Below are positions 3,628 through 57,515 of a stretch of DNA of 64,000 nt, in pieces; positions within the stretch are counted from its first letter, which is position 1, and the number at the start of each line of letters is the position of its first letter. Made by a program: the position numbers and the translations under genes. Where the stretch lies: positions 1 through 64,000 of the IMG/VR virus record IMGVR_UViG_3300042482_001026. One strand, given 5' to 3'. Origin of the DNA: a virus. The notes below the pieces were generated by a model. That model was not told the DNA's origin. It saw only the letters and a list, made by a program, of their open reading frames with translations, and searched no databases.

Positions 3628-3658
3628 AAAACCTCCTAATTTTAAAAGCTACGTCAAA

Positions 3659-4456
3659 TTAAACAAAAGCAGGCGAGTCCTTGTCAATATATGTTCCGTT
3701 AAGTTCGGGAGACTGTGGATATTGCCAGCTAGGCAGCCGTTCACGAATGGCTTTGTATAGTTCGTAATAGGTGCCTGTGAAGTTGGCATTCAACACATCG
3801 AGTGCCGCGCGCGAAAATGCACCATTAGGTCTGCCGTTGAAACGGGCGTCACATGAGTATTCGGCATCACCACATCCAGAAAAATGGATAAAACCTTTAA
3901 CAGGTTGATCTCCAAAAGATGTAGGGGAAAACCTTTGAGCAATTTGAGCATTGTTTAAATCTTTTTGATCCGTAAAAATGTTGGCCGGAGGTATGTATCG
4001 GATGTGAGATACATATGACTCTGAGCCTTGCTGATTTCCGGCAAACCTAAACACAGTACCTGAGTGACAAGCGTCTGTGATAAACACAAGCTGCGCTCCG
4101 GGTTTGATTTCAACCCAGCATTCAGCCAGTTCGTCGTCTACAAGCAAACGATCGGCAGACATGTCATAGGGACAGAGACATTCATCACGGCCGTCTACTT
4201 CATCTCCCTGCATGTCGGGGATCCATGTACCGTGGCCTGCAAAGAAAACAACGCCCTTATCTCCCGGTTGTAACGACTGCACCAGTGTACGGATACCTGT
4301 GTATATTGCAGCCTTCGTAGCCGCTGAATCTAATAGTGTGGCAGTTGCGTAACCACGTATCGTTAGAAACTTAGCCCAATCCAACGCATCATTAACACAT
4401 CCGGCCAATGGTGCGGATGCATAAGAGTTGATACCAATGCACAATGCTTTTTTCAT
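3659..4456 (-). CDS. metacaspase-like cysteine protease (peptidase C14)
   Basis: A 265-aa protein with the caspase/metacaspase core. It opens with KKALCIGINSYASAPLAGCVND, the usual first strand plus 'L.GcvNDA' loop. The catalytic His is H75 in FFAGHG and the catalytic Cys is C130 in ITDACHSG. Between them is DEVDGRDECLCPYD, matching the metacaspase 'DG.DE.lcP.D' element that shapes the acidic S1 pocket. No signal peptide or extra domain is present; it is a bare p20/p10-type unit and looks catalytically intact. It sits between two glycosyltransferase genes with a clean ribosome-binding site (AAGGAG). Target unknown: virion protein processing, interference with a host suicide system, or host killing are all possible. 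Confidence 0.85.
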   Translation of the reverse strand: MKKALCIGINSYASAPLAGCVNDALDWAKFLTIRGYATATLLDSAATKAAIYTGIRTLVQSLQPGDKGVVFFAGHGTWIPDMQGDEVDGRDECLCPYDMSADRLLVDDELAECWVEIKPGAQLVFITDACHSGTVFRFAGNQQGSESYVSHIRYIPPANIFTDQKDLNNAQIAQRFSPTSFGDQPVKGFIHFSGCGDAEYSCDARFNGRPNGAFSRAALDVLNANFTGTYYELYKAIRERLPSWQYPQSPELNGTYIDKDSPAFV

Positions 4457-4467
4457 GGAAACACTCC

Positions 4468-5112
4468 TTAGTTATGCACAAACAAGGTAGCGTCCAATTT
4501 TCGAGCACGTTTTGCAGACGCAACCAGTGCTTCAATGTAAACCCCATCGCCGGAAAATGAGAAATCTGTCCATGGTACTTTGGCAATTAAATCTCGAGAT
4601 GCCATGAAACAACCTAGATCAATACGGCCTTTTTTAGGAGTCGTCAGGAACGGTTGCCATAGTCTGTGACTGTGTACCATGTCGCAGTACATGAAATCAC
4701 TTTTGGTACCTACGGCTTCAGCAAGCATCCATTCAAGAAACACAGGCATGTAATAATTGTCGTCGTTAGTGAAAACAATGTACTCAGGTTGTTGCACGGT
4801 ACTAGGTGAACCCTTGTACGTGAACGGAGCTAAAGCCTGTTCTCTTCTGTGAGGATGCCCGTGTTGTTTAGTGCGATTAGGCGTGCAAATAAAATCAATA
4901 CGCGGATCGAGAGTAATGTGGTTGGCAGGCAAGGCACTATCGACAGGGCCGTCATGCACGATCTTGACCGACCAGTTAGGATATGTCTGAGCCACAATTG
5001 AAGACAGGAAACACATCAACGCGTCTTGGCGCCTTGAGTCGTCGTTAAGGTACGACGCAACGACGATTCCAACTGTGGGACCATCTTTCAGTTTGGTCTT
5101 CCAGTAGCGCAT
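4468..5112 (-). CDS. family 2-like glycosyltransferase
   Basis: A 214-aa GT-A protein. TVGIVVASYLNDDSRRQDAL starts the fold, WSVKIVHDGPVD is the second strand with its acidic residue, and VFTNDDNYY at about 113-121 is the metal-binding site in the NDD variant. It is shorter than usual GT2 enzymes (250-300 aa) and seems to lack most of the C-terminal acceptor region, so it may be a minimal enzyme. It starts at an ATG behind AGGGATG and is followed by the metacaspase gene after 11 nt. Confidence 0.75.
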   Translation of the reverse strand: MRYWKTKLKDGPTVGIVVASYLNDDSRRQDALMCFLSSIVAQTYPNWSVKIVHDGPVDSALPANHITLDPRIDFICTPNRTKQHGHPHRREQALAPFTYKGSPSTVQQPEYIVFTNDDNYYMPVFLEWMLAEAVGTKSDFMYCDMVHSHRLWQPFLTTPKKGRIDLGCFMASRDLIAKVPWTDFSFSGDGVYIEALVASAKRARKLDATLFVHN

Positions 5113-5146
5113 ATGTCATCCCTGCCCTTAAAACGTTTGGCAATCT

Positions 5147-5779
5147 CTAGGCAGGATAGACAGTAACAACCTGTATGTCCAAACCATTTTTAGGAATATG
5201 ATCTATTGGCACTAACGGCAACCCAACATATTTTCCTTCACGGTTAATTTGTTCAACCAATGAGCGGCACCCAAAGTCCGTACGATTAATGTAATAATCG
5301 TCCATCAAAAATACATTTTCGGTTGCAATCAAATGTTCCAAATTCTTAAAATCTGACGCAATAGTTTCAAGGCTATGCCCGCCGTCAATGAAAATAAAGT
5401 TTGGTTTGAGCGAGGCTGGATCTTCTTTCCACGCCTTAAGCGTTTCCTGTGTATTACCTTTAAACAACTGCGCTCCCTTAAACCTTGCGCCATATTTTTT
5501 GCCGACAGTTTTTTGAAACACATCTTGTACCGCAGCAGTAGCCGCAGGCAGAGTACTTTTAGAGAACTCAGCTTTTGACATGTCAAGCGTCATATCTTCA
5601 AACAAATCAAAGCCAATATATGACGCTGTTTTGTTTGACCCGGCACTTAAAAAATAGTCCAGCATATTAGCGGCACGGACGCCGTTAAATGTACCAACTT
5701 CCAAGTACACGAAATTAGCTGTACGTGCAGCTAAATCATCAAGCTTGCGCAACAAATTTACATAACGACCGGCAAACAT
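5147..5779 (-). CDS. class I SAM-dependent methyltransferase
   Basis: A 210-aa protein with a Rossmann methyltransferase layout: VYLEVGTFNGVRAANML (about 24-40) is motif I (E.G...G), SYIGFDLF is the acidic end of strand 2, and NFIFIDGGHSLETIASD (about 127-143) is motif IV with the IDG.H signature seen in Methyltransf_24-type and small-molecule O-methyltransferases found in glycan clusters. LMDDYY follows. It probably methylates a sugar or a sugar-bearing acceptor. The start has AGGAG upstream. Substrate unknown. Confidence 0.75.
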   Translation of the reverse strand: MFAGRYVNLLRKLDDLAARTANFVYLEVGTFNGVRAANMLDYFLSAGSNKTASYIGFDLFEDMTLDMSKAEFSKSTLPAATAAVQDVFQKTVGKKYGARFKGAQLFKGNTQETLKAWKEDPASLKPNFIFIDGGHSLETIASDFKNLEHLIATENVFLMDDYYINRTDFGCRSLVEQINREGKYVGLPLVPIDHIPKNGLDIQVVTVYPA

Positions 5780-5798
5780 GGGGAACTCCTATATGTGT

Positions 5799-6503
5799 TT
5801 ATTTACTCGTATTCGGCGCAGTTCTAAGATAAGTACTTGTATCTTCGGGAGGCGGTAACCACGGTAAATTGAATTCAGTAAGAAGTCGTTTGTAATCTTC
5901 CTCGCCGTGTACCGCACCGATAAACGGACTTAGCGTAAACGTATTAATGCCACCTTGCCGCAAAATATTACGTATTTTGGCTGTACCCTGCCTGTACTCT
6001 TTGTAAACATCTTTGGGCGCTAATCCGTGAAACTTAACATGCTGATCGTGTCCGTGGTGTTCGCCGGCAAGATCTGTCATGTCTACACCGACTAAAAAAA
6101 TGTTCTTGGCACCCATCAACATTGCCATATGCATAGCTGTCTGTTGCACGCCGCACTCGATAAATAATGTATGTTCTTTAGGCGTGTAAAACAAATCGTA
6201 ATTTTTTTGCTCTGTGACAAAAACGTAATACTCAGGGTCGTCGTATTTTAAATGACGCATCGGTGTTTTTTTCTTAACAATCCATTGTGTGTGATTACGC
6301 GTGCGTGTCTTGTTGTACAGCTTAAGCAATTCTGGATGCACCGTAATGCTGTACGTCAAAGTCCTATAGCGCCACGCCTGATTTAATCCAAGCGTAATCT
6401 TGCCGTCTAAAATCTCTAAAGGGAATACGCGCATGCTGGGGCCTGTGCCCACAATGTAAATATCCTGACCTTTGTGTTTGTTGTATAAATCAGCAATGTG
6501 CAT
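5799..6503 (-). CDS. DUF115/GT42-like protein (sialyltransferase or MptE-like fold)
   Basis: A 234-aa protein starting IYIVGTGPSMRVFPL (15-29), the nucleotide-binding loop shared by GT42 sialyltransferases, DUF115 flagellin-modification proteins and MptE pyrophosphokinases. TLGLNQAWRY (38-46) corresponds to the conserved Asn-containing strand, and GVQQTAMHMAMLMGAKNIFLVGVDMTDL (118-145) is the family's second signature. GEHHGHDQHVKFHG supplies several histidines; GT42 enzymes use a histidine as base. It may use a CMP- or nucleotide-linked sugar, or act as a maf-like glycosyl carrier. A paralog lies at 8116-8724. Confidence 0.6.
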   Translation of the reverse strand: MHIADLYNKHKGQDIYIVGTGPSMRVFPLEILDGKITLGLNQAWRYRTLTYSITVHPELLKLYNKTRTRNHTQWIVKKKTPMRHLKYDDPEYYVFVTEQKNYDLFYTPKEHTLFIECGVQQTAMHMAMLMGAKNIFLVGVDMTDLAGEHHGHDQHVKFHGLAPKDVYKEYRQGTAKIRNILRQGGINTFTLSPFIGAVHGEEDYKRLLTEFNLPWLPPPEDTSTYLRTAPNTSK

Positions 6504-6505
6504 GA

Positions 6506-7312
6506 TTAAAAGATTCCTAACTTGCGGCCGTGCCTGCCTTTGTCGTGCGTGATGTAACCACGCAACGCACTGTTCTCGACAACATCTGCGTTGCCGGTAA
6601 CAGCTTCGGCAAGATCCACAGCACTGACACCGGGATCCAACAAAACCCTCTGAAGTTGCATACTGTCGTCCCAGCGATCTTCTTGTCTAAAGTCGCCGGA
6701 CGTATAACGAGCAATCAACTTTTCCAACAAAGCTTCGCCGTTGCCTTTAAGATTAAAACCGAAGACACCTGTTTCCATGACAGGCCGTTTGTTCTTAAGG
6801 TAAAACGCGTCTTTACCATTAAACCAACTATCAATGACTTGAGAAGAAACACTTGAAGTAAATACACAGTCGGCATCAATCCACAAGATGCTGGAATACT
6901 GCGTGTGCGTTTTGTGTCTCGCCAAGGCCACACGCAAAGTCACAATCTTACGAAACCAGCGCGCGGCATTGTAATTAAACCACGCGGCAGGACACTTAGG
7001 CTTATGGCTTTTACTGTTAGGGCCGTGAGGTCCCTTAGGGCACTTACACGCATTGTCAGATTTGCCACCGAATTGAATCGGAACGATGTCACTGTTTTTG
7101 TCTAACCACTGTTTAAGGAAATCATCGGCCAATACGTTGTGGTGCTGAAACAACGGCGACAAAGGTAACTGTTGGTAGTTAACATGTTCCAGACCCAACA
7201 GAAAATCAAAAGCGTTCTCGTTCTGTAAATAAGACTGCACCAACGGAATACCACTCTGATGTAGTATTCGGTCAGAGAAAGAAGTAACCCACAGCGGTTT
7301 AGGTCCAGCCAT
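6506..7312 (-). CDS. GT-A glycosyltransferase, WIDAD type
   Basis: A 268-aa protein. The metal site is WIDADCVF at 144-151, preceded by a helix rich in Arg/Lys (KIVTLRVALARHKTH), a layout seen in GT-A enzymes of GT34/GT8-like groups. Residues 83-110 contain a Cys/Gly/Pro/Lys-rich insertion (ACKCPKGPHGPNSKSHKPKC) that could bind metal or be a flexible loop. ETGVFGFNLKGNGEALLEKL resembles the acceptor region of these enzymes. AAAGGA precedes the ATG. Donor unknown. Confidence 0.7.
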   Translation of the reverse strand: MAGPKPLWVTSFSDRILHQSGIPLVQSYLQNENAFDFLLGLEHVNYQQLPLSPLFQHHNVLADDFLKQWLDKNSDIVPIQFGGKSDNACKCPKGPHGPNSKSHKPKCPAAWFNYNAARWFRKIVTLRVALARHKTHTQYSSILWIDADCVFTSSVSSQVIDSWFNGKDAFYLKNKRPVMETGVFGFNLKGNGEALLEKLIARYTSGDFRQEDRWDDSMQLQRVLLDPGVSAVDLAEAVTGNADVVENSALRGYITHDKGRHGRKLGIF

Positions 7313-7314
7313 GA

Positions 7315-8088
7315 TTACAATCCTTTGATGTGCTCGAGATAAATAGGATGCAGCCCATTCGTGTTGCGCCAGTCTTCCTTAACGTTGAACTTGGCAACAG
7401 CATCTTTAACCTCGGTCTCTGTAATAACTGCATTACGGTAGGCATGCTTAAATTCTTCTATCCACAAATACGCTAAGGGATGATCAGGTTTGTACCAAGG
7501 CTGTTCTGGCTCTTTGGTGTAATGCAACAATGCCGTGGTGTTGGGATTGTAAACGTTTAAATGATTCCATTCGATTGGTAAGATTCCCGGGGCAGGTTGC
7601 ATCCACTTAGCGTGCATAAAATCGGCATATGCTTGTTTGGTTGGATTTTTCTTTAGCCAATCAAACATGTAACGGCGGCTCCATTCAAAATAATTCTTGG
7701 CCTTAAGACAATCAATCACCATGACGGATGACTGTGGCCATGGCTTAGGATTGAATTTATCTGGTTGATATGTCATAGCTGCTGAGGTCTTATCCCTCAT
7801 AGCCTCAATGCCCATCTGCAACAAGCCTGCAATGTCTTTGAAAACAATCTGATCAGCATCCAGATAGATAGCGTGCCCTTGCCAGTTACACGCTTCGGGA
7901 ATCATCCATCTGCGTAACGAGAAACCTGTGCCGACTTGAATACCTTCTGTTGCGTATTCCCATTCAGCGCCAATCATAGGTGTGAACGTGACAATCGATG
8001 CTGTGCGGCGCTGAATGGAGTGTTGAAGAACTTTGCGCGCTATTTCGGTCTTAGGCTCGGTGCCAATAAACACCTTGATATCTGGCAT
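7315..8088 (-). CDS. GT8-like glycosyltransferase
   Basis: A 257-aa protein when started at the second in-frame ATG (8088), which has GGAG 8 nt upstream; the first ATG at 8094 sits only 2 nt after that site. IKVFIGTEPKTEIARKV is a typical GT8 opening, FSLRRWMIPE is the helix before the metal site, and AIYLDADQIVFKDI (about 73-86) is the DxD motif. TAAMTY and SSVMVID follow as in glycogenin-like folds. It is the second DAD-type enzyme in tandem with 6506. Substrate unknown. Confidence 0.75.
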   Translation of the reverse strand: MPDIKVFIGTEPKTEIARKVLQHSIQRRTASIVTFTPMIGAEWEYATEGIQVGTGFSLRRWMIPEACNWQGHAIYLDADQIVFKDIAGLLQMGIEAMRDKTSAAMTYQPDKFNPKPWPQSSVMVIDCLKAKNYFEWSRRYMFDWLKKNPTKQAYADFMHAKWMQPAPGILPIEWNHLNVYNPNTTALLHYTKEPEQPWYKPDHPLAYLWIEEFKHAYRNAVITETEVKDAVAKFNVKEDWRNTNGLHPIYLEHIKGL

Positions 8089-8115
8089 GCGCATTCTCCG
8101 TGGTTAAAGCGCATT

Positions 8116-8724
8116 TTACAATTTAACTATGCGAACGCCAGATGACTTTATGGTTTTTTCAAACTCGTCAAACTGTATATCAAACGAACTGCGACCATTG
8201 GATAAACGGTCTTTGGTGTCAAATGCCGGGTTGTAACGCGTGCCGCCATCAACGCCTAATGTGTAAATTTCTTCTGTGTGCCCTGCGGCTACCAACAGAT
8301 TGATTGCAGCTACGGCACTGAAATACCTAACTCTTATTACTGGGTAATCGGGATTAGGTTTCAAAGAACTGGTGGTGCTGTTGAATGTGTACACGTTACC
8401 TGCGTCTGCGTATTCCTTCCAATAAGCACTTGTAGAAAATAAAACATCGAGAGAATCTTTACCCGACTTGGCGTTCTGGTGGGGTCTCCATGGCAATATG
8501 ACTTTAATGTTTTTTGCTTTGAGTTCGTCAAAACATTCCGCAAAGGCTTCACGGTCAATGAACAGAGCAGCAGAAGGTGTCGTCAGCCTAAACGCATGAT
8601 TAAGCGTTAGGATGCTAACAATATCAGTGCTGAAGTTTTTGACTTTATCCGATGTTGGACCTTTGCCGACAACTAGCCAACTTTTAGACATGTCTTTGAG
8701 CAAATCAAGCGCGTTAAGAAACAT
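8116..8724 (-). CDS. DUF115/GT42-like protein, paralog of 5799-6503
   Basis: A 202-aa protein. SWLVVGKGPTSDKV (about 15-28) is the glycine loop, SILTLNHAFRL is the Asn strand and AAINLLVAAGHTEEIYTLGVDGGTRY is the second signature, all in the same order as in the 5799 gene. I chose the ATG at 8724, which overlaps the cupin gene by 11 nt; a longer frame would reach 8781 but would run deep into the cupin. MSKSWL at 8691 is another possible start. It may be a nucleotide-sugar-using transferase. Two copies in one cluster suggest two acceptor sites. Confidence 0.55.
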   Translation of the reverse strand: MFLNALDLLKDMSKSWLVVGKGPTSDKVKNFSTDIVSILTLNHAFRLTTPSAALFIDREAFAECFDELKAKNIKVILPWRPHQNAKSGKDSLDVLFSTSAYWKEYADAGNVYTFNSTTSSLKPNPDYPVIRVRYFSAVAAINLLVAAGHTEEIYTLGVDGGTRYNPAFDTKDRLSNGRSSFDIQFDEFEKTIKSSGVRIVKL

Positions 8725-9112
8725 TAGATTTTTTCGGTGTAATACCGCCCTCATCCGCACGAACAATGTCTGAAGGGTCAAGACTTACCCAGTAGGTCTC
8801 AATCAATTCCACGTCCGTGATTGCCTCGAAACGATGCTCCACATTGGAATGCACCGAAAATCTATCTCCGCAATTTAGTGTAACAGTTTGTATCTCATTA
8901 CCGTCTGCGTCGTACACAATAACTTTTAGCGTACCTTCAACGAGGTAGAAGTCATTGGCTTTAGCTCTATGGTGGTGCCGGGAGCTGTAACCCCCGGCGA
9001 CGATCTGTGCGTGATGCACTTCAAAGTTAGCGTCAGAAAAAATACAGCGATTGGTTCCCCAGCGTTTTGACAACACTGGTACGGTACACGCTTTTAGGTT
9101 AGACGAAGACAC
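8714..9112 (-). CDS. cupin, mannose-6-phosphate isomerase type II-like
   Basis: A 132-aa single cupin domain. Residues 41-62 carry the first cupin motif with HHHRAK (46-48 plus E59), and GDRFSVHSNVEHRFEAI (82-98) is the second motif with H93. WGTNR near the start and SDIVRADE at the end match the isomerase half of GDP-mannose pyrophosphorylase/isomerase proteins. It may isomerise a phosphosugar for the cluster or bind sugar. It begins at GTG with TAGGAC upstream. No pyrophosphorylase partner is seen in the window. Confidence 0.7.
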   Translation of the reverse strand: MSSSNLKACTVPVLSKRWGTNRCIFSDANFEVHHAQIVAGGYSSRHHHRAKANDFYLVEGTLKVIVYDADGNEIQTVTLNCGDRFSVHSNVEHRFEAITDVELIETYWVSLDPSDIVRADEGGITPKKSNVS

Positions 9113-12598: not shown

Positions 12599-13738
12599 TT
12601 AACCGGGCGCAACACTTAGCAATTTATTGAGAGCAGCTTGTCTACCGTCATTAGTACCGCCGTAATATGCCGCAAGTCCACCAAGCCCAGCTCCACCGAG
12701 AGTAGCCAACAATTTACTTGCGGTAAGACCCTTCTTGGGATTAACACCAGATAAAGCTTGATGCAAATAATAACCAAGCGCTCCGCCGGCAGTTGCGCCC
12801 GTTGCGGTAATGCCAATGTTTTTAAGTTTATTTCTAGCCATCAATGCGCCTTGCGCTGGCGCAGCGTAATTACCCATTTGCTTACGTAAACCACCACCGG
12901 CTGGACCTGAAATACCGGCGGGTTCGACAATGTTGTGTTTTTTAAGAAAATCAGCCGTTGTACCTGCGGACTCTGCCGCCGCATATTCGTCCAACATAGC
13001 TTTCGTGGCCGCTGGATTTAATCCTTTACTGGCAGCCACATTTTCTAAATATGTCTCGGCACCCGTTTCATATTTTTGTACTGCTTCCTGCAATTTAGGC
13101 GGCAATTCTTTGTGATATTTGCGCAAAAATCTCATTTGCCGATCGTGAGGAATTAAGTCTGTGTCGATTTCATGCGGATCGACATAACTCGTTTCAGGCG
13201 TATCGAGTTCTTCCTTCAAAAAAGTTCGCCACGCTTTATCAAATTCGGGACGAGCGCCTTCAGCCATACCGCGCACATTTGGATGCGCTTGATGAAAATA
13301 AGCAGAAATAGGTCCTTTTCTAAAAGCGTCATAATGCGTACGCGATTCTAATCGCTGTAAAGGTGTTTTAACTACATATGACGGGGGAACGTTAGCTTTC
13401 GCCATAATCGCAGGACTGCTGCGCAACTGTGTCATGATTTCGCCAACTGGAATACCAAACGGTTTTAAGCTGGCTGCGGCTGACAACACATCGTGATAAT
13501 GTGTAAAGTCCGTATCCCCGGGAAGTCGTGCTGGCTTAGTGGCTGAGTCTAATTTTCTTTGTACAAAATCAGCTTGAGCGTCTCCGGCAATACCATACGC
13601 AGCACCCAAACCAGCAGCACCAACACCGGCACCAGCTGCACCCAATGAAGGCAACACATAGTCAGTCCAATTACGCGTTTTCTTTTTGGCTTTTTTAGCC
13701 CCAGTTAACGCTTCAAGCCGTTCAGCAATTTTGTACAT
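12599..13738 (-). CDS. unknown protein with Gly-rich hydrophobic segments at both ends
   Basis: A 379-aa protein if started at the ATG at 13738, which has GGGAG 7 nt upstream; an upstream ATG at 13765 has no such site. YKIAERLEALTGAKKAKKK is a basic N-terminal helix, then a Gly/Ala hydrophobic segment (about 32-60). Residues 70-270 are a soluble helical domain without recognised motifs. The C-terminus has two more Gly-rich hydrophobic stretches (GITATGATAGGALGYYL and LLATLGGAGLGGLAAYYGG). The pattern matches the 11892 product, suggesting a family of virion membrane-active proteins. Confidence 0.55.
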   Translation of the reverse strand: MYKIAERLEALTGAKKAKKKTRNWTDYVLPSLGAAGAGVGAAGLGAAYGIAGDAQADFVQRKLDSATKPARLPGDTDFTHYHDVLSAAASLKPFGIPVGEIMTQLRSSPAIMAKANVPPSYVVKTPLQRLESRTHYDAFRKGPISAYFHQAHPNVRGMAEGARPEFDKAWRTFLKEELDTPETSYVDPHEIDTDLIPHDRQMRFLRKYHKELPPKLQEAVQKYETGAETYLENVAASKGLNPAATKAMLDEYAAAESAGTTADFLKKHNIVEPAGISGPAGGGLRKQMGNYAAPAQGALMARNKLKNIGITATGATAGGALGYYLHQALSGVNPKKGLTASKLLATLGGAGLGGLAAYYGGTNDGRQAALNKLLSVAPG

Positions 13739-13781
13739 GCCGCCACTCCCGTTAAATGTAAGCATGTTTCAGTATAGTCAC

Positions 13782-14582
13782 TTATTCGATGTCAAACAAA
13801 GAATCGATGTCACCGTTGGTTTCATCTAATTGTTCTGCGATTTCTTGCTTAGGATCAAAATCATCATCGTAATCTGACATGTTTTCAAACGCACTGTCTT
13901 TGCCGTCCTGCGATGGTGCAAACACCCCGGCGACAAACTGCTGCAAGAATATTAAATTCTTGGCAAACTTTTCTTTAAACAACAACGACGCTTTTTCCAA
14001 CAAGTTATACGCAAGATATGCAGAAGACAGGGATATGTTGTTTTGCTTGTGTATGTTGTCTATGCCCTTCTCAGAAACAATAGCCGTAATGTTGTCCAAT
14101 GTGGCCTTGAGCGCCAACATGACAGATGCATCGGTCAGGGGCATCTTGTCGTCAGGATCCGAACGGGCACAGATAGTTTGAGTTTGCACAATAGCCGTAG
14201 TGTTGTCGTCGTAGCAAAATCCAACGCTCACTGTAACTGCTTTGATGCTTTTCTCAGGCTCGTCGTGCGTCGCCATTGTGTACACAGGCCACAGCGTCAG
14301 AACAATATCTTGCCCCGAAGAAACATCAAGCATAGAACTTAATTGCTCATAAACTTCACGTGTAACTTCAGCTTCGTGGCATAACTGCTTAGCGTCAAAT
14401 TCTTCAAAATGCTCAATAAGCCAAAACAGAAAAGCGGCCGGAGATGCCCGGTGCTTTTCTGTTTCTGTTGATTCGTTGTCTTCTGTTTCCCAAAATCGAT
14501 CAAACAATACGCGTAAAAGATACGGAACGCCGGGGTCCATGAACGTGTCATCATCATCGTCAGAAGAGTCGTCGTATGGCAC
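13782..14582 (-). CDS. unknown acidic protein
   Basis: A 266-aa protein with acidic ends: DDSSDDDDDTF near the start and YDDDFDPKQEIAEQ plus DSLFDIE at the end. The middle (about 20-235) is a mixed alpha/beta domain with no recognisable motif. It starts at GTG with GAGG upstream, 8 nt after the previous gene. Acidic tails also occur on the proteins at 25278, 38498, 39072 and 40625; they may be interaction tails for basic partners. Position between the tubulin gene and the virion-like genes suggests a virion or assembly role. Confidence 0.55.
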   Translation of the reverse strand: MPYDDSSDDDDDTFMDPGVPYLLRVLFDRFWETEDNESTETEKHRASPAAFLFWLIEHFEEFDAKQLCHEAEVTREVYEQLSSMLDVSSGQDIVLTLWPVYTMATHDEPEKSIKAVTVSVGFCYDDNTTAIVQTQTICARSDPDDKMPLTDASVMLALKATLDNITAIVSEKGIDNIHKQNNISLSSAYLAYNLLEKASLLFKEKFAKNLIFLQQFVAGVFAPSQDGKDSAFENMSDYDDDFDPKQEIAEQLDETNGDIDSLFDIE

Positions 14583-14590
14583 GGCTAACC

Positions 14591-14932
14591 TCAGAAAATG
14601 GCGTTAACGGACGTAGCACTCACACCGTTCTGCCCGGGTTGGGATCTTGCGACGCTGATCGAGACTGCTTCAGATGGTTGCATTGTACCTGAAGTCGTAT
14701 CTGTTGTCGTAGTGACGCGGACGTTGTTGCTTAGACACATACCAATGTTGCCAGTACCGTCAGGATAAAACAATTCGATGACGCGATGCTGATCCATGTA
14801 ACTTTTAGCGAAAGCAATAAAAGCATCAAGGGTCTTTGCTGCAATTGTCGTGTCTGCGTCAAATGCCGTCTTAAGATGCGTCACGATGTCAGGTACAGAT
14901 GCTGAATTTACGAACGCCGGAATCGTACTCAT
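14591..14932 (-). CDS. unknown small protein (113 aa)
   Basis: A 113-aa protein: residues 1-55 form two helices (VPDIVTHLKTAFDADTTIAAKTLDAF, shown in part), then a beta-rich C-terminal half (IGMCLSNNVRVTTTTD, AVSISVARSQPG). The ATG at 14932 follows AGGGGG. It lies 8 nt after the stop of the 40-aa membrane protein, so it is probably on the tubulin transcript. No family recognised; small size and mixed helix-sheet layout would fit a virion decoration or fibre-type protein, but this is a guess. Confidence 0.55.
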   Translation of the reverse strand: MSTIPAFVNSASVPDIVTHLKTAFDADTTIAAKTLDAFIAFAKSYMDQHRVIELFYPDGTGNIGMCLSNNVRVTTTTDTTSGTMQPSEAVSISVARSQPGQNGVSATSVNAIF

Positions 14933-14940
14933 CACGCCCC

Positions 14941-15063
14941 CTACTCTTTAATGTTCATAGTCACAAACACACCCAGAAAAAAGCATAACGTACACGACAC
15001 CACATCAATAGAGTGTCTTATCAAATCGTGCAGATTTTGGTTAAAGTCGAAATGCCCAAACAT
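14941..15063 (-). CDS. 40-aa single-span membrane protein coupled to the tubulin gene
   Basis: Too short for a length filter, but its ATG (15063-15061) overlaps the tubulin stop as TGATG, the same coupling used elsewhere in this genome. The sequence starts MFGHFDFNQNLHDLIRHS, an amphipathic or polar N-terminus of about 18 residues, followed by a hydrophobic segment VVSCTLCFFLGVFVTM (about 21-36) and a short charged end NIKE. It would sit in the inner membrane with one span. Stop-start overlap means roughly matched expression with the tubulin, so it could be its membrane anchor or regulator. No homolog is known to me. Confidence 0.6.
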   Translation of the reverse strand: MFGHFDFNQNLHDLIRHSIDVVSCTLCFFLGVFVTMNIKE

Positions 15064-16304
15064 CAGTCAACGCCCAAAAAGGAAGCAATGTTACTGGCGG
15101 CATTAGCGGCCGTAACACTACCAACGCGGGCAAGCTTAGATAGGGTTTCACGAGGTGGCTCCAGATCACCAATCAAGGTGTAACACTGGATACCTGAATC
15201 ATCGTCACCTGTGTAGATGCCTCTGTGCAGAACAGTCGCAGGCTTCTCAGGATACCCACTACCTAGAAGCTGATCTAATTGCTCAAATCCCGACATGAGG
15301 TAATCGTCAGAAAACGTTTGCTGTACTTCGGGACTGGTAGCAAAGACACAGACACCCTTCTTACCTCGCCGCAGATCACAGGCTGACAAGACATTGTTGG
15401 CCAGTTCATCTCTAATGACGCTGCGCACATCAGCAGGCGACGATACCTTCTTAGGATCAATGTATGCCGAACCCATGACAAGGATGCCTGAGTCGAGAAG
15501 CTGGAAGAACTCACTCTGATCAAACGTTACTAAGCCCTTACGGTTGGCTGCGTAGTAATTAAAGACGTTAAACAATTCCGCCACTACAGAGTTAGCCTTG
15601 GGATAAAGATCGGCCATGGAAGACGAGTAAATGTTTTTGACTCTAGCATTGTCAATCACGATCAAAGGACTGACCTTAGCTGCCATCAGTTCAGAAAATG
15701 CTTGAATGGCATTACGGCACGTCAATTGTCCTTCGCCCGGTTGTGGCAATGAAACGATGGCGCCTACACGGGTATCTTCTCCCGTGGTCTGTGCCATGTG
15801 CTTGCGAGCTAATGCTACGAGGCTGGAGCTCATGCCTCCACCTGTACCGCCACCAAGACCAGCACAGATCAAAATGCAATCTAAAGGACCAGAACCCCAC
15901 GCCCTAAACAACAAGTCTCTTACATCTGCATCTCGATTAGCCAGAACTTGCTTGGCCAACTTCATGTCCTTGGATGCTCCGCCCACGTCCAAAGACAGTT
16001 TGGGCATCTCGGCATCTAGGCCATCAAAGTCGTTTACCGTGGTATTGAGAACACCTACACGTCGATATCCTAAGGCCCAGAACGCTTGCGCAATACGACC
16101 ACCCGCCTGACCACATCCAAGTACACCAATCCGAGCTGCGACGGGGTAAGACAAATCATCTTCAATTGGAGCTACTTGTTTAGTCGCCTGCTTGGATTGC
16201 GCCACAGATGTTGTCAGCGCAATGTTGCCCGGACGAGACGGCATAGGGGGACCAGATGGCTTCAATTGTTCTGCGGCATTCAAGGACTTGGAAAAATCAG
16301 ACAT
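15063..16304 (-). CDS. FtsZ/tubulin-family GTPase
   Basis: A 413-aa protein. Residues 1-55 are a disordered, Pro/Ser-rich leader. The GTPase domain has the T1 loop VLGCGQAGGRIA (61-72), the tubulin signature GLGGGTGGG (149-157) as the T4 loop, and SLPQPGEG near 185-192. The T7 region reads VTFDQSEFFQLLDSG (259-273), so D262 and E265 are candidates for the GTP-hydrolysing acidic residues; this differs from the usual N.D..D. The C-terminal domain follows and ends without the classic FtsZ-binding peptide. It probably forms filaments in the infected cell. It lies far from the replication genes and among virion genes, unlike plasmid tubZ loci. Confidence 0.85.
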   Translation of the reverse strand: MSDFSKSLNAAEQLKPSGPPMPSRPGNIALTTSVAQSKQATKQVAPIEDDLSYPVAARIGVLGCGQAGGRIAQAFWALGYRRVGVLNTTVNDFDGLDAEMPKLSLDVGGASKDMKLAKQVLANRDADVRDLLFRAWGSGPLDCILICAGLGGGTGGGMSSSLVALARKHMAQTTGEDTRVGAIVSLPQPGEGQLTCRNAIQAFSELMAAKVSPLIVIDNARVKNIYSSSMADLYPKANSVVAELFNVFNYYAANRKGLVTFDQSEFFQLLDSGILVMGSAYIDPKKVSSPADVRSVIRDELANNVLSACDLRRGKKGVCVFATSPEVQQTFSDDYLMSGFEQLDQLLGSGYPEKPATVLHRGIYTGDDDSGIQCYTLIGDLEPPRETLSKLARVGSVTAANAASNIASFLGVD

Positions 16305-16307
16305 GTC

Positions 16308-16667
16308 TTACTCCGCGTCAGACTTGGGCTGTGGTTGTTTACGCCCGTACCTGTGTGGAGCTTGTTTGCCTCCACGACCTTCCATGATGTCCCTGTGCGC
16401 ATCCTGAGATTCATTGGCCGGTACGGTTTTCGACATTATTGTAAGTTTAGCTGCCTTGATCAATTCCAATGCTGAAAAACGTCCAAGGTCAGCCGCCGTG
16501 ACAATCTTGTCCCCGGATACTTTGTCAAGTAACGCCGATACGTTTCCAATCAAAGCTGATGGCGCTGACTTGCGCACGCGAGTTACACGATTGATTACGT
16601 CATCTACGTCGCGATCGGATTCGACGTCTTTGTTGAGATTGTATTTGGTCGTGCGGCGGCGTGGCAT
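16308..16667 (-). CDS. small basic protein upstream of the tubulin gene
   Basis: A 119-aa protein starting MPRRRTTKYNLNKDVESDRD and ending in a basic tail (GGKQAPHRYGRKQPQPKSD). The middle (about 20-85) is helical and could hold a small DNA-binding or adaptor fold (VDDVINRVTRVRKSAPSALI, then AADLGRFSALELIKAAKLT). It ends 3 nt before the tubulin ATG. In plasmid type III partition systems the tubulin partner is a small winged-helix protein (TubR); position and size fit, but I see no sequence proof. Confidence 0.5.
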   Translation of the reverse strand: MPRRRTTKYNLNKDVESDRDVDDVINRVTRVRKSAPSALIGNVSALLDKVSGDKIVTAADLGRFSALELIKAAKLTIMSKTVPANESQDAHRDIMEGRGGKQAPHRYGRKQPQPKSDAE

Positions 16668-16682
16668 TGCACTTCTCCTCCA

Positions 16683-17735
16683 CTAAGGAACAAGTAACTC
16701 GCACCATGCGTCGGCAAAAACCGTAGAATTTTCAATGGAGCGTGTTGCCATTGTCTCAAAAATCTGTTCTTGCGCAAACGCTAACGATGCGTATTTGACA
16801 AAGTTTGACGTGTCATTAATTGCGGAAGGCGCTTGCATCCAATTTGTTTTAATATCGCATGGCACCAAAACGCCTGTCTCGTCGGTTTTGATAATGTCGC
16901 TATAAGGCGGAATGTCCCACGCTAATACAGGACAACCACACGTAGTAGCCAATGTCGCAAATGCTCCAAAATTAGATTTACGTGACGGGAACCATACCCA
17001 ATCGTGTGCATGAAAATGCGTTGCAAGTTCGTCTAATTTGGGCATTGGTTGCATAACGAACCGCGTCGGTAAATCTCGCAACATGCTCTTAAGGGTTTGC
17101 TTGTCTGTAGGTGCAAAGTTTTTAGTACACAACAATGTAAATTCTAGATTGGAGTGTAAGTTCAATAACTCATCAATCGCTGACAACATGAATCCCGCTG
17201 AATTGCTGATAGCATCTGAATCCGCTACCACACAAATTCGTCTGATGTTTTTGCGGACGTGTCCCGTTCGCTTTGTAATCGGCGATCTAACATCCCACGG
17301 CACTGTCAATAACTTCTTAGTACGCGTCTTACCGTAAACACATTGTGTAAACGTTTTTTTAATTGAGGGTGTCGGCACAACGCAATAATCAAAAAAGGAT
17401 CGTATTGTTTCTACGGATTCCAGTCGCGTGGATTGCCATAAAGGTACAAGGATTTGATTGCATTTTTTAGACACGGAGCGCCGATAATGTTGAGTCATTG
17501 TAATAAAATCATGATCGACACCCATGTGTACGATCGTTGTAGCTGACAGTATAGCCGGCAACACATTTACGCGAGATAACACGTGCGCATCCCAGAAAGA
17601 TGATGCCACGCCAGATTTAGTACCCTGTGGTAAAATAAACACTTCTTGATTTGACATTTCCAAAGCAACTTGCGCCACACGCAACGCCGCATATGTGGTT
17701 TCATCTCGGCGATAGGGCGTGTAGATATAAATCAT
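16683..17735 (-). CDS. GT4-like glycosyltransferase (GT-B fold)
   Basis: A 350-aa protein with a GT-B layout. The C-terminal domain holds IRRICVVADSDAISNSAGF as the first strand-loop, then TLLCTKNF, and WFPSRKSNFGAFATLATTCGCPVLAWDIPPYSDII, the donor-binding region of GT4. The conserved acidic residue normally found before FG (E..FG) is missing here (KSNFG), so donor choice or activity may differ. I start it at the ATG at 17735, which makes an ATGA overlap with the upstream gene; the longer frame begins at TTG 17747. Confidence 0.7.
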   Translation of the reverse strand: MIYIYTPYRRDETTYAALRVAQVALEMSNQEVFILPQGTKSGVASSFWDAHVLSRVNVLPAILSATTIVHMGVDHDFITMTQHYRRSVSKKCNQILVPLWQSTRLESVETIRSFFDYCVVPTPSIKKTFTQCVYGKTRTKKLLTVPWDVRSPITKRTGHVRKNIRRICVVADSDAISNSAGFMLSAIDELLNLHSNLEFTLLCTKNFAPTDKQTLKSMLRDLPTRFVMQPMPKLDELATHFHAHDWVWFPSRKSNFGAFATLATTCGCPVLAWDIPPYSDIIKTDETGVLVPCDIKTNWMQAPSAINDTSNFVKYASLAFAQEQIFETMATRSIENSTVFADAWCELLVP

Positions 17736-18538
17736 AGTCGCGTCCAATCGCCTTTGTTGTATCTCGGGCCGCGCGTGACAGACCTGTAATGAAACACGTA
17801 GCTCGATAAAGCTATGCCTGATTTTAAACCAAGCTTATGCCAACGCGATTGTAACTCATACTCTTGTAACGTCATAGCCGGGGTAGGGTTAGGCTGGCCT
17901 TTACTGTTAAAAGGGTTTACATCTCTAAAAGGTTGTTCAGGCGCATACATATTCTTTTCCCATGTGCTTGCCTTGGCCATCATGCAAAAACCGTTGATTG
18001 ATGCCACTTTTACTTTGGTTGCTTGTTTGGCGAGTAATTCTAGTTGTACATCATCCATGTTTGTTGCGTCGGGACCCCGATATGTTTCAGCATAATGTTT
18101 AACGAATTGTTCGTCTTCTGTTCCGGGAGCATTGGTGACGGGACCGACTAATTGCACACGATCAGCGCGTAACGCCGATACCATGCCATTGTCGTAATTT
18201 TTAGGGAAAACAACGTCACTGTTAGTTACACAGATAAAAGAAAACCGGGTATCGCGCAATGCCGCCATGATCCCGGCATTCCACGTTTTAGTAAGACCCA
18301 TGTTTTGGCGATTTACAATCAAACGCATGCGCGTCGGATACCGTTCCATAAGATTGCGCACAATCGTATTAGGTATGTGCACATCACGACTTATAGTTTC
18401 ATGGAAGTCAGGACTGGCATCGTCTACCAGATAGACATGCGTCTCTACGTGAGCCGCAGCTTCGATCGCTGAAGTGATCGCAAGCGCGGCATACTCAAAT
18501 TTTCCGTACGTGGGGACGATAACACATAGCCGATCCAT
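17732..18538 (-). CDS. family 2 glycosyltransferase
   Basis: A 268-aa GT2 enzyme with clear motifs: LCVIVPTYGKFEYAALAI start, VYLVDDASPDF (about 34-44), NMGLTKTWNAGIMAA (about 94-108) and FICVTNSDVVFPKNYD (about 116-131) as the metal-binding strand in its NSD variant. The C-terminus ends WHKLGLKSGIALSSYVFHYRS, the conserved acceptor-side histidine region. It is coupled to the GT4-like gene and separated from the main sugar cluster by the tubulin genes, so it may serve a different glycan. Confidence 0.85.
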   Translation of the reverse strand: MDRLCVIVPTYGKFEYAALAITSAIEAAAHVETHVYLVDDASPDFHETISRDVHIPNTIVRNLMERYPTRMRLIVNRQNMGLTKTWNAGIMAALRDTRFSFICVTNSDVVFPKNYDNGMVSALRADRVQLVGPVTNAPGTEDEQFVKHYAETYRGPDATNMDDVQLELLAKQATKVKVASINGFCMMAKASTWEKNMYAPEQPFRDVNPFNSKGQPNPTPAMTLQEYELQSRWHKLGLKSGIALSSYVFHYRSVTRGPRYNKGDWTRL

Positions 18539-18556
18539 AAGTTCGTCCCTTAATTA

Positions 18557-20446
18557 TTACCTGCGACGGCCGAACAACCCACGGCGTTGTTGCGGTTGCG
18601 GTGGGCTGAAATAAGGATTTTGTTGCGGTAGCGCACGTGGCTGGTATTGCGATGGCGGCAACGCTTGACCCGGAATGCGCGGAGGTGCTTCTGCCGGTGG
18701 CTCCGCAGTTTGCGGGGGAAGAATGGTTTGCGGGGGAAGAATGCTGTCGGCAAAAGGGTCAATTCCGTCAAATGCTTTTTGCGTTTCCGTAAGACCCGGT
18801 AAATTTGGATCTGGCTGGAAATTATCAGCATTTGGCAAATCTTTAAAAATGTCCCGTGGCGGTACGCGAAGAGGATCTTGCCCCGTTACACGCGGTGGCA
18901 CTGCTGCCGCAGGCGGTCCTACGGGATTTTGTGGGCCAACAAAATCAGGATGACTCGGATCATTTTTACGATTTAAATTTAAATCATCCATAGGAAGTTT
19001 GTCGTCAAAATCTATAGGCGCCGCAGGTGTGGTATCATAATCTGGATGTCCCGGATATGGCGTCGAATCACCCGGATCTCCCGGGAACGGACCAACATTT
19101 TCAACTTCTTTTCGTCGTTTTTGTTGCTCAGCAAACGCTTTTGGATTTTTTCTTGGGCCGTAGTCCGGCGGTGTTGGCGCCGGTTTTGGCTGTTCAGGCG
19201 GATACATATCTGCGTTAACACCCTCCCGAAGCGAAGCAATCTCTTCTGGTGTTTTACCTTCTAATAAATTTGGATCATTTGCATCATATGTTGGTTTTGG
19301 AGCAGGTGCTTGTGGTGCTGGCGCAGGTGCTTTTGCTGCTGGAGCAGGTGCTTTTGCTGCTGGAGCAGGTGCTTGTGCTTGTCCCGCCGGCGTGCGCGGA
19401 AGTAATCTAGGATGTGACGTTTGTTGCGTTGGCTGCGGGAGCGCCCTAGCTACGGCACTACCGGCAGCGCCACCAAGACCTCCTGCACCGCCACCTCCGC
19501 CGCCTCCGCCGCCTTGGCCACCACCGCCATAATTGTAGCCGCCAAAACCACCGCCGCCCCGTGGCGCATTAGTACTTGTAAATGAGTCTATTACAGGCGG
19601 GACGTAATCTGTACCGGGTATCGGCGGAATAGTACCTACTTCATACGGCATTATAAACGGTTGAAGTTGTTTTCTGCGGACTTCTGCGGATTGCATGTGA
19701 AATAGATTGAGAGGATTATTCATATCAATCGGGTGCTTTTGTTTCGGTGTGGCACCAGCAAAGTTTTTATATTGCGTTGGTTGTGGTCCGCCCGGCCAAG
19801 TTAACGGTTGGCCGTTAAAATACATTTGCCCTTGATGTTCATATATTTGCCCTTGCGGGTGTGGCTGTTGTTGCTGTTGTTGCGGTACTTGCGCTGAAAT
19901 TTGCTGTTGTCCTGCACCGGGCTGTGGTGGCACAGGTCCGGGCTGTGGTTGCGGCTGTGGAGCTTGTGCTCTGGCAGCACTTTCTCGAATTTTATTTGTA
20001 AATTGATCTACAGCGTTATTGGTACCGGCGCCTATTTGATTTATAGCGGTATTGGTACCGGCGCCTATTTGCCCCAACGCATCAGTAATTGGATTCTGGA
20101 ATCCCCCCTGTTTGGGCTGTGGTTTTGGTGTCGGAGGCGGTGGTGGCGGTGTGTTGCCCGGAGTGTTAGACGGCGAATTGCCAATTTGACCACGGCGTTT
20201 TTGCGCGTCTGCTGCTGCTTGTTCGGCAGATGGGCCGGGTGGAGGCGGAGGGAGACCGCCTAATTCAGAACGCCGTTTTTGTGCGCCCGACGGATCTGCT
20301 GGCGGCTTTGGAGGAAAACCGCCAAGCCCACCACCAGCTGCTTGCTTTATAGCCGTAATCGCACCCAAATCAGCTGCGGTCTTTGCAACCGCAACCTGCC
20401 GACGCGCAATTTCAGCGCCAAGATCATAAGCAGTTATAATTTTCAA
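18557..20446 (-). CDS. Pro/Gln/Gly-rich virion-like protein, TTG start
   Basis: A 629-aa protein. The longest open frame reaches 20563 but overlaps the portal gene by 107 nt; the TTG at 20446-20444 sits 9 nt behind TTAGGAG just after the portal stop, so I start there (LKIITAYDLGAEIARRQ). Residues 1-40 are helical, then Pro/Gly/Gln-rich linkers, an ITDALGQIGAGTN module, a glycine run (about 320-345), APAPAAK repeats, PDFVGP motifs and a basic end RGLFGRRR. It shares modules with the 9128 product. Probably a virion or injected protein; low complexity prevents a family call. Confidence 0.6.
   Translation of the reverse strand: MKIITAYDLGAEIARRQVAVAKTAADLGAITAIKQAAGGGLGGFPPKPPADPSGAQKRRSELGGLPPPPPGPSAEQAAADAQKRRGQIGNSPSNTPGNTPPPPPPTPKPQPKQGGFQNPITDALGQIGAGTNTAINQIGAGTNNAVDQFTNKIRESAARAQAPQPQPQPGPVPPQPGAGQQQISAQVPQQQQQQPHPQGQIYEHQGQMYFNGQPLTWPGGPQPTQYKNFAGATPKQKHPIDMNNPLNLFHMQSAEVRRKQLQPFIMPYEVGTIPPIPGTDYVPPVIDSFTSTNAPRGGGGFGGYNYGGGGQGGGGGGGGGAGGLGGAAGSAVARALPQPTQQTSHPRLLPRTPAGQAQAPAPAAKAPAPAAKAPAPAPQAPAPKPTYDANDPNLLEGKTPEEIASLREGVNADMYPPEQPKPAPTPPDYGPRKNPKAFAEQQKRRKEVENVGPFPGDPGDSTPYPGHPDYDTTPAAPIDFDDKLPMDDLNLNRKNDPSHPDFVGPQNPVGPPAAAVPPRVTGQDPLRVPPRDIFKDLPNADNFQPDPNLPGLTETQKAFDGIDPFADSILPPQTILPPQTAEPPAEAPPRIPGQALPPSQYQPRALPQQNPYFSPPQPQQRRGLFGRRR
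19323..19372 (-). repeat. 21-bp tandem repeat
   Basis: Two exact 21-bp units (19323-19343 and 19344-19364) and a partial third encode the APAPAAK linker of the surrounding gene. Confidence 0.9.
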
Positions 20447-20456
20447 GGTAAGACTC

Positions 20457-22364
20457 CTAACCTGTTGGTTGCGCACCACTCGCCTGTCCCATAGCAGCAC
20501 TGTTGGCCGCCTGCGTCTTCGTATCGCGTCGCTTTTGTGCCATTCTCTCTTTGACCAGAGCATGCATTGTCGGATTAGATTGTTTCAATTTGCGCAGATC
20601 GGAATCTTTAACAGACTCCGGTTGTCCAAGCAATTGATCCGCCAGACTATCCGCAGCCGCCATCATATCCTGAGGCGTCTGTTGCGTGTTCTGTCCCATA
20701 GCTTGAACATACTGCGTAACCGGGCTTTGCTGCTGCGCCATGGCGTTGGGATCTTGTCCACCTTGAGGAGCGCCACCGCCTTGAGGAGGAGCACCGCCTT
20801 GAGGTTGATTAGGATCGCCTGCCTGACCCTTGGCAATCTGCTGAGCAAAGCCTTGTTGCTGCATCTCTTCTTGCATACGGGCTTGAATCTCGGATTGAAA
20901 GCGCGACTCTTCTCCCAGTTGCTTTTGTTCCTGTCTCCAATCATAACCCATGTCGCGCAAAACCGTAGTGCCAGACAACTGCTGTGACATCATCATTTGC
21001 GCAGCCATCATTTGCTTCTCAAGATTGTCAGCAATAGTGATGCGCTTGAGCGATGTCTTAACAGTCTCCCACGACTTAATGCGACTGATCTCTGTCGTCA
21101 ACCAACGCAAGAATCTATTGGCGTCATTTACCAAAGGATGATGCGTGGCTTCAAACAAACGCAATGCTACAGGCGCCGTTTGAAGTTGCAGACTTCCATT
21201 ATAAAGTTCAACGGGAGTACCGCAATCATTCAACAAGCGTTCGTAGCCTTGAGCAATTAATTCCGTTGGTGCCAGTTGCTTGGCATCGGCACCAAACATC
21301 TGGAAATTAACGGGAAACGGAAATACTTGAATTGAGGCGGGATCTCTGCGCCTACGCCTAATCATCTGCAAAGCTTGATTGCGAAAATCACCGCCGTCAT
21401 ATGTCATTAGCGGATCCATAGCTCCGCCTGACGGGCCACCTGCGCCTTGCCGTGGCTGAGGCGTGATAATCCTAAAAGGAATCACGTAGTCAAGAGCGAT
21501 GGCTTCGTTGAAACGATGAAGAACCTGCACGTACCAAATCTGCCTGAAGTTAGACAGCAACCGAGGAATACCCCAACCTCGGTTAATCATGCCTGACAAC
21601 GTTGGTTCTTTCATGTGAAAAATAGCATCAGGGTTAAACCTAAAAACCTGATTTAATTGCACGGCCTTTAGAACTTCTTGGTCCACACGCTCCAAATGAA
21701 ACAAAGAACCTTGGCGAATTTGTCTGCGGTAGTCTTCGGGGATACGCCAAATGTAATTCAAGTCTTCGGTGTAAAGATCATGCAGCAATTCAATTTCGTG
21801 GACGTTCCAATGCTTAACACGAATTTTACTTTCGTCTTTTTCGTCTTTGATTTTCCAAGGCCCACGATATGTTTCTTTACCTTTCTTGGCACATACAGGA
21901 CATGTGGCAACAAAATCAGGCATCTGCCAACTAAAATTAAATACTTTGTTTTCGTAGATTTCTTTGAGCGGCGCCTGATATCCACACTTAGGGCAACTAA
22001 GAAAACGTTTGAAAGGTACAACGATACTGCAAAAACCATTACCGTAACACATGCGATTGCGCAAAGCTGTTTGAATCTCACCAATGATGTTCATATCATC
22101 GCGTAAGTATTCTTCCCACTTTTCGCGCTCATCATCCGAGGCTTCCTCAATGACAACATCAGTAAGGAAATAACTGATGATGCGTTCCATGGCCATACGG
22201 TAAGTGCCATGGTAATTCCAAATAAACTCACACCAGTACAAAGCCGATCTAATGTTCTGAGGAATAGAGAGACTGGCTACGTCCATGAATGGATCGGGAA
22301 ACTCGGCACCACCGCCAAGTCCCGAGAAACGTGTAAACTGCCCGCGCATTAACGCCGAAGTCAT
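20457..22364 (-). CDS. portal-like protein
   Basis: A 635-aa protein. IRSALYWCEFIWNYHGTYRMAMERI is a typical portal helix region; ERIISYFLTDVVIE, EIQTALRNRMCYGNGFCSIVVPF and RFNPDAIFHMKEPTL follow. FRQIWYVQVLHRFNEAIALDYVIPFRI is the stem/wing region, and LSGTTVLRDMGYDWRQEQKQL resembles the late clip-to-crown helix of large-phage portals. Residues near 123-160 have two CxxC pairs (CPKCGY, CPVCAKK) that may bind zinc, an unusual insertion. The C-terminal 120 residues are Gln/Pro/Gly-rich. It would form the dodecameric ring at one capsid vertex. The call rests on overall layout and neighbours, not on a catalytic motif. Confidence 0.7.
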   Translation of the reverse strand: MTSALMRGQFTRFSGLGGGAEFPDPFMDVASLSIPQNIRSALYWCEFIWNYHGTYRMAMERIISYFLTDVVIEEASDDEREKWEEYLRDDMNIIGEIQTALRNRMCYGNGFCSIVVPFKRFLSCPKCGYQAPLKEIYENKVFNFSWQMPDFVATCPVCAKKGKETYRGPWKIKDEKDESKIRVKHWNVHEIELLHDLYTEDLNYIWRIPEDYRRQIRQGSLFHLERVDQEVLKAVQLNQVFRFNPDAIFHMKEPTLSGMINRGWGIPRLLSNFRQIWYVQVLHRFNEAIALDYVIPFRIITPQPRQGAGGPSGGAMDPLMTYDGGDFRNQALQMIRRRRRDPASIQVFPFPVNFQMFGADAKQLAPTELIAQGYERLLNDCGTPVELYNGSLQLQTAPVALRLFEATHHPLVNDANRFLRWLTTEISRIKSWETVKTSLKRITIADNLEKQMMAAQMMMSQQLSGTTVLRDMGYDWRQEQKQLGEESRFQSEIQARMQEEMQQQGFAQQIAKGQAGDPNQPQGGAPPQGGGAPQGGQDPNAMAQQQSPVTQYVQAMGQNTQQTPQDMMAAADSLADQLLGQPESVKDSDLRKLKQSNPTMHALVKERMAQKRRDTKTQAANSAAMGQASGAQPTG

Positions 22365-57383: not shown

Positions 57384-57515
57384 CTATACGTCAAATAGAA
57401 CGCGCAACAGCTCTTGCAACCTGCGCACTTCACTTGCCACTTTGTGTAATTGCTTGATACAACCGACGGCGTCAAAGCCGTCGATTGTCTTCTTGTCCGT
57501 AGACTCTTTAATCAT
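57384..57515 (-). CDS. small helical protein (43 aa)
   Basis: A 43-aa frame below the length filter: MIKESTDKKTIDGFDAVGCI followed by an amphipathic helix (HKVASEVRRLQELLRVLFDV). It overlaps the upstream stop by 8 nt and its stop is followed at once by the AGGAG of the next gene, the usual spacing here. A 7-bp hairpin (57464-57483) lies inside it. Plausible but unproven. Confidence 0.45.
   Translation of the reverse strand: MIKESTDKKTIDGFDAVGCIKQLHKVASEVRRLQELLRVLFDV

Follow-up and report, generated by a model that had tools for sequence, protein, structure and literature searches.

A TubZ-like tubulin and its optional, putative membrane-peptide neighbour in a large uncultured virus of bacteria

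Virus record IMGVR_UViG_3300042482_001026 (66,555 bases), of which positions 1 to 64,000 form the window analysed here, encodes a tubulin/FtsZ-superfamily GTPase of a widespread yet little-described kind, found in a large uncultured virus of bacteria. The gene is followed directly by a 40-aa hydrophobic frame, and the pair hints at a viral filament tethered to the membrane, yet it is not a fixed one, because the closest relatives keep the frame and more distant ones lack it. The strongest new points are a TubZ-like family that appears to be confined to viruses, the synteny of the tubulin with the portal gene in this lineage, and a sharp-edged block in which tubulin and frame seem to have been exchanged together. 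The features on which the argument rests are the following.

14591 to 14932, minus strand: 113-aa protein, downstream of the 40-aa frame
14941 to 15063, minus strand: 40-aa hydrophobic frame, its start codon sharing one base with the tubulin stop codon
15061 to 15065, minus strand: TGATG stop/start overlap, read from the sequence
14944 to 16393, minus strand: putatively exchanged block (whole tubulin and 40-aa frame, with the end of the 119-aa gene)
15063 to 16304, minus strand: TubZ-like tubulin/FtsZ-superfamily GTPase, 413 aa, ATG start (PF00091, PF13809 and an AlphaFold2 model)
15507 to 15524, minus strand: T7 (catalytic) loop FDQSEF of the tubulin, with D262 and E265
16308 to 16667, minus strand: basic protein of 119 aa, lying 3 bases upstream of the tubulin ATG
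16683 to 18538, minus strand: two glycosyltransferases, GT4-like and GT2 (PF13692, PF00534, PF00535)
20457 to 22364, minus strand: portal protein (by homology), upstream of the tubulin

A Tubulin Family of Viruses

The first-pass annotation had assigned the 413-aa protein to the tubulin/FtsZ superfamily from its motifs, and this identity holds: GCGQAGG (residues 63-69), GLGGGTGGG (149-157) and FDQSEF (261-266) are all present, Pfam Tubulin (PF00091) matches at E 2.5e-12 (47.9 bits against a cut-off of 33) and Tubulin_2 (PF13809) at E 1.2e-6, and the PF00091 GTPase domain carries the GGGTG signature by which the superfamily is recognised. The gene is under strong purifying selection (dN 0.001-0.010, dS 0.12-0.37), and GLGGGTGGG and the acidic residue of the T7 loop are kept across the family alignment. 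In that alignment of 25 sequences D262 is unvarying and position 265 is either D or E; alpha-tubulin has a D..E pair at this position too. The catalytic-loop mutant of Clostridium botulinum TubZ is E200A (PMC5322520, in the part of the text available), so Glu is ordinary for TubZ, and the D262/E265 pair is therefore no sign of the altered polymer turnover that had been proposed from it, a proposal we reject.

By tblastn the tubulin has no match among named phages at 1e-5 and, at E<=10, weak matches only, phage G included; only a degenerate motif pattern, followed by alignments, led to its family. Among 236 viral stretches that fit the patterns, 182 (IMG/VR) encode a relative, 80 of which were kept, and among 91 fitting genome contigs a single one does, in a MAG. 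On these sequence searches the family appears to be restricted to viruses, and the only named phage found to carry a relative is Bacillus phage G, in gp138. PHROGs hold no convincing match for the tubulin, the 40-aa frame or the 119-aa protein (best E 0.05-0.12).

An AlphaFold2 model built from the 25 aligned sequences (pLDDT 82.2, residues 1-43 disordered) finds its best structural match, among the 50 listed, in Bacillus cereus TubZ (4ei7; Z 37.5, rmsd 3.2, 338 residues aligned), followed by CetZ2 (4b45; Z 34.3), the best non-TubZ match, and c-st TubZ (4xcq; 32.3), with Staphylococcus aureus FtsZ at about 31 (Z 30.9). As modelled, the fold is closest to TubZ, helix H11 included. PhuZ is not among these 50 matches, which in itself excludes nothing; a PhuZ identity was ruled out by Pfam, the C-terminal domain PF22334 fitting phiKZ PhuZ at 1.7e-37 and giving no match to the window protein at E<=1. 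Against the family profile phiKZ PhuZ scores weakly (prob 70), and the phiKZ nuclear shell protein (phiKZ054, chimallin) has no match in seven of seven tubulin-bearing virus records, in a search that detected the phiKZ control, the records being possibly fragmentary and shell proteins divergent. The C-terminal domains of TubZ are unevenly recognised in the family. TubZ-like_C (PF22453) is above its cut-off in 5 of 12 relatives scanned and TubZ_C_3 (PF22340) matches the tubulin of locus L062; the window protein matches neither at E<=1, and the tubulins of L063, L064 and L065 have no PF22453 match.

FtsZ binds FtsA, ZipA and SepF through its C-terminal conserved peptide. The window tubulin ends in ...ASNIASFLGVD, where no FtsZ-type C-terminal peptide is visible by eye. 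At the N-termini of relatives (e.g., L027:5899, L017:5854) a conserved stretch such as VDIPTLDIEDYD was seen, which is absent from the window clade; we take it to resemble the FtsZ C-terminal peptide, yet it sits at the opposite end of the protein. An N-terminal [LIVM][DNE][IL]P motif occurs in 78 of 98 relatives as against 2.3 in shuffled sequences, a count discounted as evidence because the relatedness of the sequences and a second site within the domain both inflate it. Some family members are much larger (about 750-890 aa in L055 and L056:5806-8070), and in the L056 protein the GTPase and TubZ-like C-terminal domains lie about 380 residues apart, separated by a large insert.

The Portal Neighbourhood

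The putative portal protein resembles the "portal protein" of Salmonella phage Arash (E 4e-47, 24.7%) and its counterpart in Vibrio phage D69 (29%), two phages in which no tubulin match was found; PHROGs gave no convincing match for it. Portal and tubulin genes co-occur in five of five further records examined (portal identity 97, 88, 56, 63, and 49% in G002 to G006), and the portal gene stands 2.5-4.9 kb upstream of the tubulin in L063, L064 and L065. Because of this co-occurrence and of the upstream position in the three loci, the tubulin is taken to belong to the portal region in this lineage. Glycosyltransferase genes lie between the portal side and the tubulin in the window, and two are also found upstream of the L064 tubulin.

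The small basic protein that had been noted just upstream of the tubulin is confirmed (119 aa, net basic by inspection). It is 97% identical in G002 and 50% in G003, has no match in G004 to G006, and is thus present in three of the six records; its structure model has too low a confidence to be interpreted (pLDDT 53). A homology to the protein of 180 aa encoded upstream of the tubulin in L065 was looked for and none was found. From the earlier proposal of a filament, anchor and adaptor set, the filament is retained as plausible by family, and the adaptor role finds no support in the 119-aa protein, with its patchy occurrence and poor model.

Elsewhere in the window, no tRNA was found. A phage protein encoded at 3659-4456 has the look of a metacaspase-type peptidase, with GHGTW and DACHSG; adjacent kinase and cytidylyltransferase genes at 57508-59084 resemble a split heptose kinase/adenylyltransferase, and many glycosyltransferase-like genes occur at 382-8781 (all by eye). 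A 1118-aa family A DNA polymerase (42246-45602), with an N-terminal part that looks like a uracil-DNA-glycosylase by eye, matches 1331 phage records, all at less than 60% identity, and an alanine-rich 384-aa ORF on the plus strand (62455-63609) has a long open frame on the opposite strand as well.

The 40-aa Frame

Both the overlap and the hydrophobic frame reported in the first-pass annotation are there: on the minus strand the tubulin stop TGA (15065-15063) and the next ATG (15063-15061) form TGATG at 15065-15061, and the frame at 14941-15063 (translation MFGHFDFNQNLHDLIRHSIDVVSCTLCFFLGVFVTMNIKE) has one hydrophobic segment (best 19-residue Kyte-Doolittle mean 2.0) and no Pfam match. Its ATG is without a strong Shine-Dalgarno sequence upstream (TTTTTGGGCGTTGACTG); the tubulin has GCGGAG and the 119-aa gene GGAGGAG. 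The stop/start overlap as such is routine in the window, where 13 junctions overlap by 1 or 4 bases (67 minus-strand ORFs of at least 90 aa), and the RNA fold across the tubulin/frame junction is unremarkable (z -1.28). The 113-aa protein that follows belongs to no Pfam or PHROG family above its cut-off, and in L004 a 204-aa gene (L004:7373-7987, oxygenase-like by eye) is inserted between it and the 40-aa frame.

The frame is intact in L001, L002 and L004, all three complete loci whose tubulin is at least 98% identical to that of the window, and has therefore been kept with the tubulin in four of four complete clade members, L003 and L005 being left out of the counts for their truncated tubulins. 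Its changes, counted by hand under parsimony and 13 in number only, are 7 synonymous against 6 non-synonymous where 23% synonymous would be expected (p 0.016), and the hydrophobic core is nearly unchanged within the clade. In viral contigs a DNA pattern for this core fits five stretches, three of them beside these tubulins; the matches in L112 and L113 are unrelated chance matches.

Beyond the clade the frame disappears. It was not found in records G004, G005 and G006 at E<=1, and the nearest diverged relatives, L063 (48% identity) and L064 (45%), keep the tubulin and have in place of the frame a 148-aa frame and a response-regulator domain (by eye), respectively; many other tubulin loci likewise are without such a frame. 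The L064 protein is 123 aa long, receiver-like by eye, and begins at +38 after the tubulin. Thus, a conserved hydrophobic frame directly coupled to the tubulin gene stands as first described, and its standing as an obligate partner falls with the relatives that have a tubulin and no coupled hydrophobic frame. From this distribution the frame would be lineage-specific and optional, neither an obligate nor a fixed partner of the tubulin.

Exchange of Tubulin and Frame as One Block

Comparison of close genomes revealed an abrupt change of divergence around the pair. Between the window and L002 the block at 14930-16400 differs at 93 of 1471 sites and the flanks at 29 of 3430 (p 1.8e-26), and between the window and L001 at 43 of 1471 and 18 of 3215 (p 4e-10). 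The tubulin dS in these comparisons is 0.12 and 0.26, set against 0.00-0.05 for most neighbours; a more distant 388-aa gene in L002 is an exception (dS 0.185). Against L004 and L003 the pattern is reversed, with 100-base blocks 86-99% identical inside tubulin and frame and 45-86% outside, and the tubulin dS is 0.37, most neighbours being saturated or having values above 2 (p114 has 0.89). The block has one edge among the final codons of the 119-aa gene (about 28 codons inside) and the other where the 40-aa frame has its 3' end; the latter edge holds in L002 and L004, and in L001 the right edge lies within the frame. Tubulin and frame therefore appear, from these alignments, to have been exchanged as one sharp-edged block between near-identical and between distant genomes, of which repeated homologous exchange is the simplest account. 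In co-infection, PhuZ filaments of mixed composition reportedly do not function (PMC13282480, in the available part); by analogy, and speculatively, such non-functional mixtures could favour one shared tubulin allele.

Membrane Genes after Tubulins across the Family

In the 98 tubulin loci whose 3' end is complete, the next frame (the longest starting within -20 to +100) belongs to one of 38 families, 12 of which have a hydrophobic segment, compared to 33 of 244 families after other long genes of these loci (p 0.007; 11 of 37 and p 0.015 without the window's own family). This test was post hoc, and the simple hydropathy rule behind it calls signal peptides, along with some internal segments, transmembrane as well, so that the class includes exported proteins and the calls for L062 and L074 are doubtful. 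Hydrophobic next frames of 30-60 aa that overlap the tubulin gene (-4 to -1) occur at 6 of the 98 loci, in three lineages, and at 1 of 571 next ORFs after other long genes of the same loci. Membrane peptides of 38-43 aa follow the tubulin in L020, L022, L023 and L058, and other small membrane proteins in L059 (47 aa) and L066/L097 (68-69 aa); phiKZ PhuZ is followed by a phosphatase and phage G gp138 by pyruvate phosphate dikinase. The peptide of the L020/L023 kind is also present at the same site in L117 and L119, with the flanks kept and the tubulin gene missing, the gap in L117 falling exactly between two adjacent alignment bases. Such peptides can therefore stand alone, and the tubulin has been gained or lost cleanly in these two loci. 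Since at least 13 changes of the downstream membrane state are needed on a tree of 67 of the 98 rows (31 members of the 35-member largest cluster having been omitted beforehand) and the peptide occurs without tubulin in L117 and L119, the association with membrane genes is enriched but loose.

A Proposed Role and Its Alternatives

The account that we tentatively prefer, while holding it somewhat short of probable, is a TubZ-like filament that positions capsids or DNA, joined in this lineage by an optional membrane microprotein that tethers or modulates it. A TubZ-like cytomotive GTPase of a phage-restricted family, encoded beside the portal gene, would most likely polymerise during infection and serve to position or transport capsids or phage DNA; from the tubulin message, the 40-aa frame would most likely be translated by termination-reinitiation, and its product would insert as a single-pass inner-membrane peptide and tether or modulate the filament at the membrane. 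The peptide would then be a real lineage-specific accessory, dispensable to the tubulin system.

A real possibility, if a doubtful one, is that the frame is an unrelated, moron-like membrane accessory gene in a variable slot, which shares the message and the recombination block with the tubulin and has no part in its function. The slot is indeed variable, with the response-regulator domain of L064, the 148-aa frame of L063, the 204-aa insertion of L004 and many unrelated genes elsewhere, and both the repeated changes of membrane state and the solitary peptides of L117 and L119 point the same way; however, frame and tubulin have been kept together in all four complete clade members and exchanged together, and membrane genes are enriched after tubulins. 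It is quite improbable that the frame makes no useful product and is a chance open frame or a stretch that serves the RNA. Such a reading would suit a frame known from sequence alone, with a weak ribosome site and 13 substitutions in total, but the intact frame in all four members, the excess of synonymous changes, the nearly unchanged hydrophobic core and the ordinary RNA fold argue against it.

Very improbable indeed is a type III partition cassette in which the TubZ and a TubR-like 119-aa adaptor segregate a plasmid-like prophage, even though TubZ is the closest solved fold among the 50 matches listed, the TubZ of phage c-st partitions a plasmid prophage (PMC7950403, in part) and TubZ systems possess a membrane-binding TubY (PMC7762940, in part). 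No centromere-like repeat array is present at 13500-18800, where just two-copy families were found; the 119-aa protein has no HTH family match (Pfam, PHROG) and is absent from three of six records, centromere-binding proteins being diverse by the same source; the tubulin lies near the portal gene; and PF22340 matches the L062 tubulin and not that of the window. Extending the preferred account of an optionally tethered filament, large non-PhuZ phages might use membrane-anchored filaments generally, TubZ-like tubulins having repeatedly recruited different small single-pass proteins, and anchor and tubulin might be traded as a cassette here, perhaps under a need for the filament to match its anchor, or for co-infecting filaments to match one another; we consider this broader idea rather unlikely.

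Phage cytoskeletons have so far been known mainly from PhuZ and c-st TubZ, and the 182 IMG/VR stretches, with phage G as the one named-phage relative, add a widespread further group of phage tubulins. The recombination cassette supplies natural swaps of a tubulin and its candidate membrane partner to work with, and should the peptide prove to anchor filaments, a tubulin polymer would have in it a minimal tether to the membrane.

Comparison with Known Systems

Cellular FtsZl1 proteins offer a parallel in that these tubulin-superfamily genes often neighbour membrane-protein genes (PMC2875224); they differ as a family with vWA and GTPase partners, and the word phage is absent from the text of that source. 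The gp138 of Bacillus phage G, a putative FtsZ-like protein, aligns over 318 columns (hhalign prob 99.7, E 1e-26), shows about 17-25% identity, is the sole named phage match when the L017 tubulin is the query, and is without an annotated small membrane frame after it. PhuZ of the phiKZ-like, nucleus-forming jumbo phages is a phage tubulin too, and by analogy a role in positioning DNA or capsids is likely. TubZ shares the nearest solved fold and a Glu in the catalytic loop with the window tubulin, whereas the latter has a short C-terminal end after the H11-like helix and, instead, a disordered N-terminus of about 43 residues; unlike TubZ systems, the window has no recognisable TubR or centromere, and its tubulin lies near the portal.

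The first-pass annotation knew of no obligate small membrane partner of a phage tubulin, and no small transmembrane partner was found described in the available parts of the literature searched (including PMC7824862, PMC8597652, PMC13282480, and PMC7162821). As to membrane partners in general this has to be amended: TubY, which attaches to membranes by an amphipathic tail and for which a role in freeing the DNA complex from the TubZ filament has been proposed, is likewise a membrane-associating partner of such a filament in the TubZ partition systems (PMC7762940, in the part available). As to a small transmembrane peptide the statement stands, since TubY, in the same text, is a MerR-like DNA-binding tetramer and regulator made from a separate transcript, whereas the candidate partner here is a 40-aa predicted transmembrane peptide encoded directly behind the tubulin itself.
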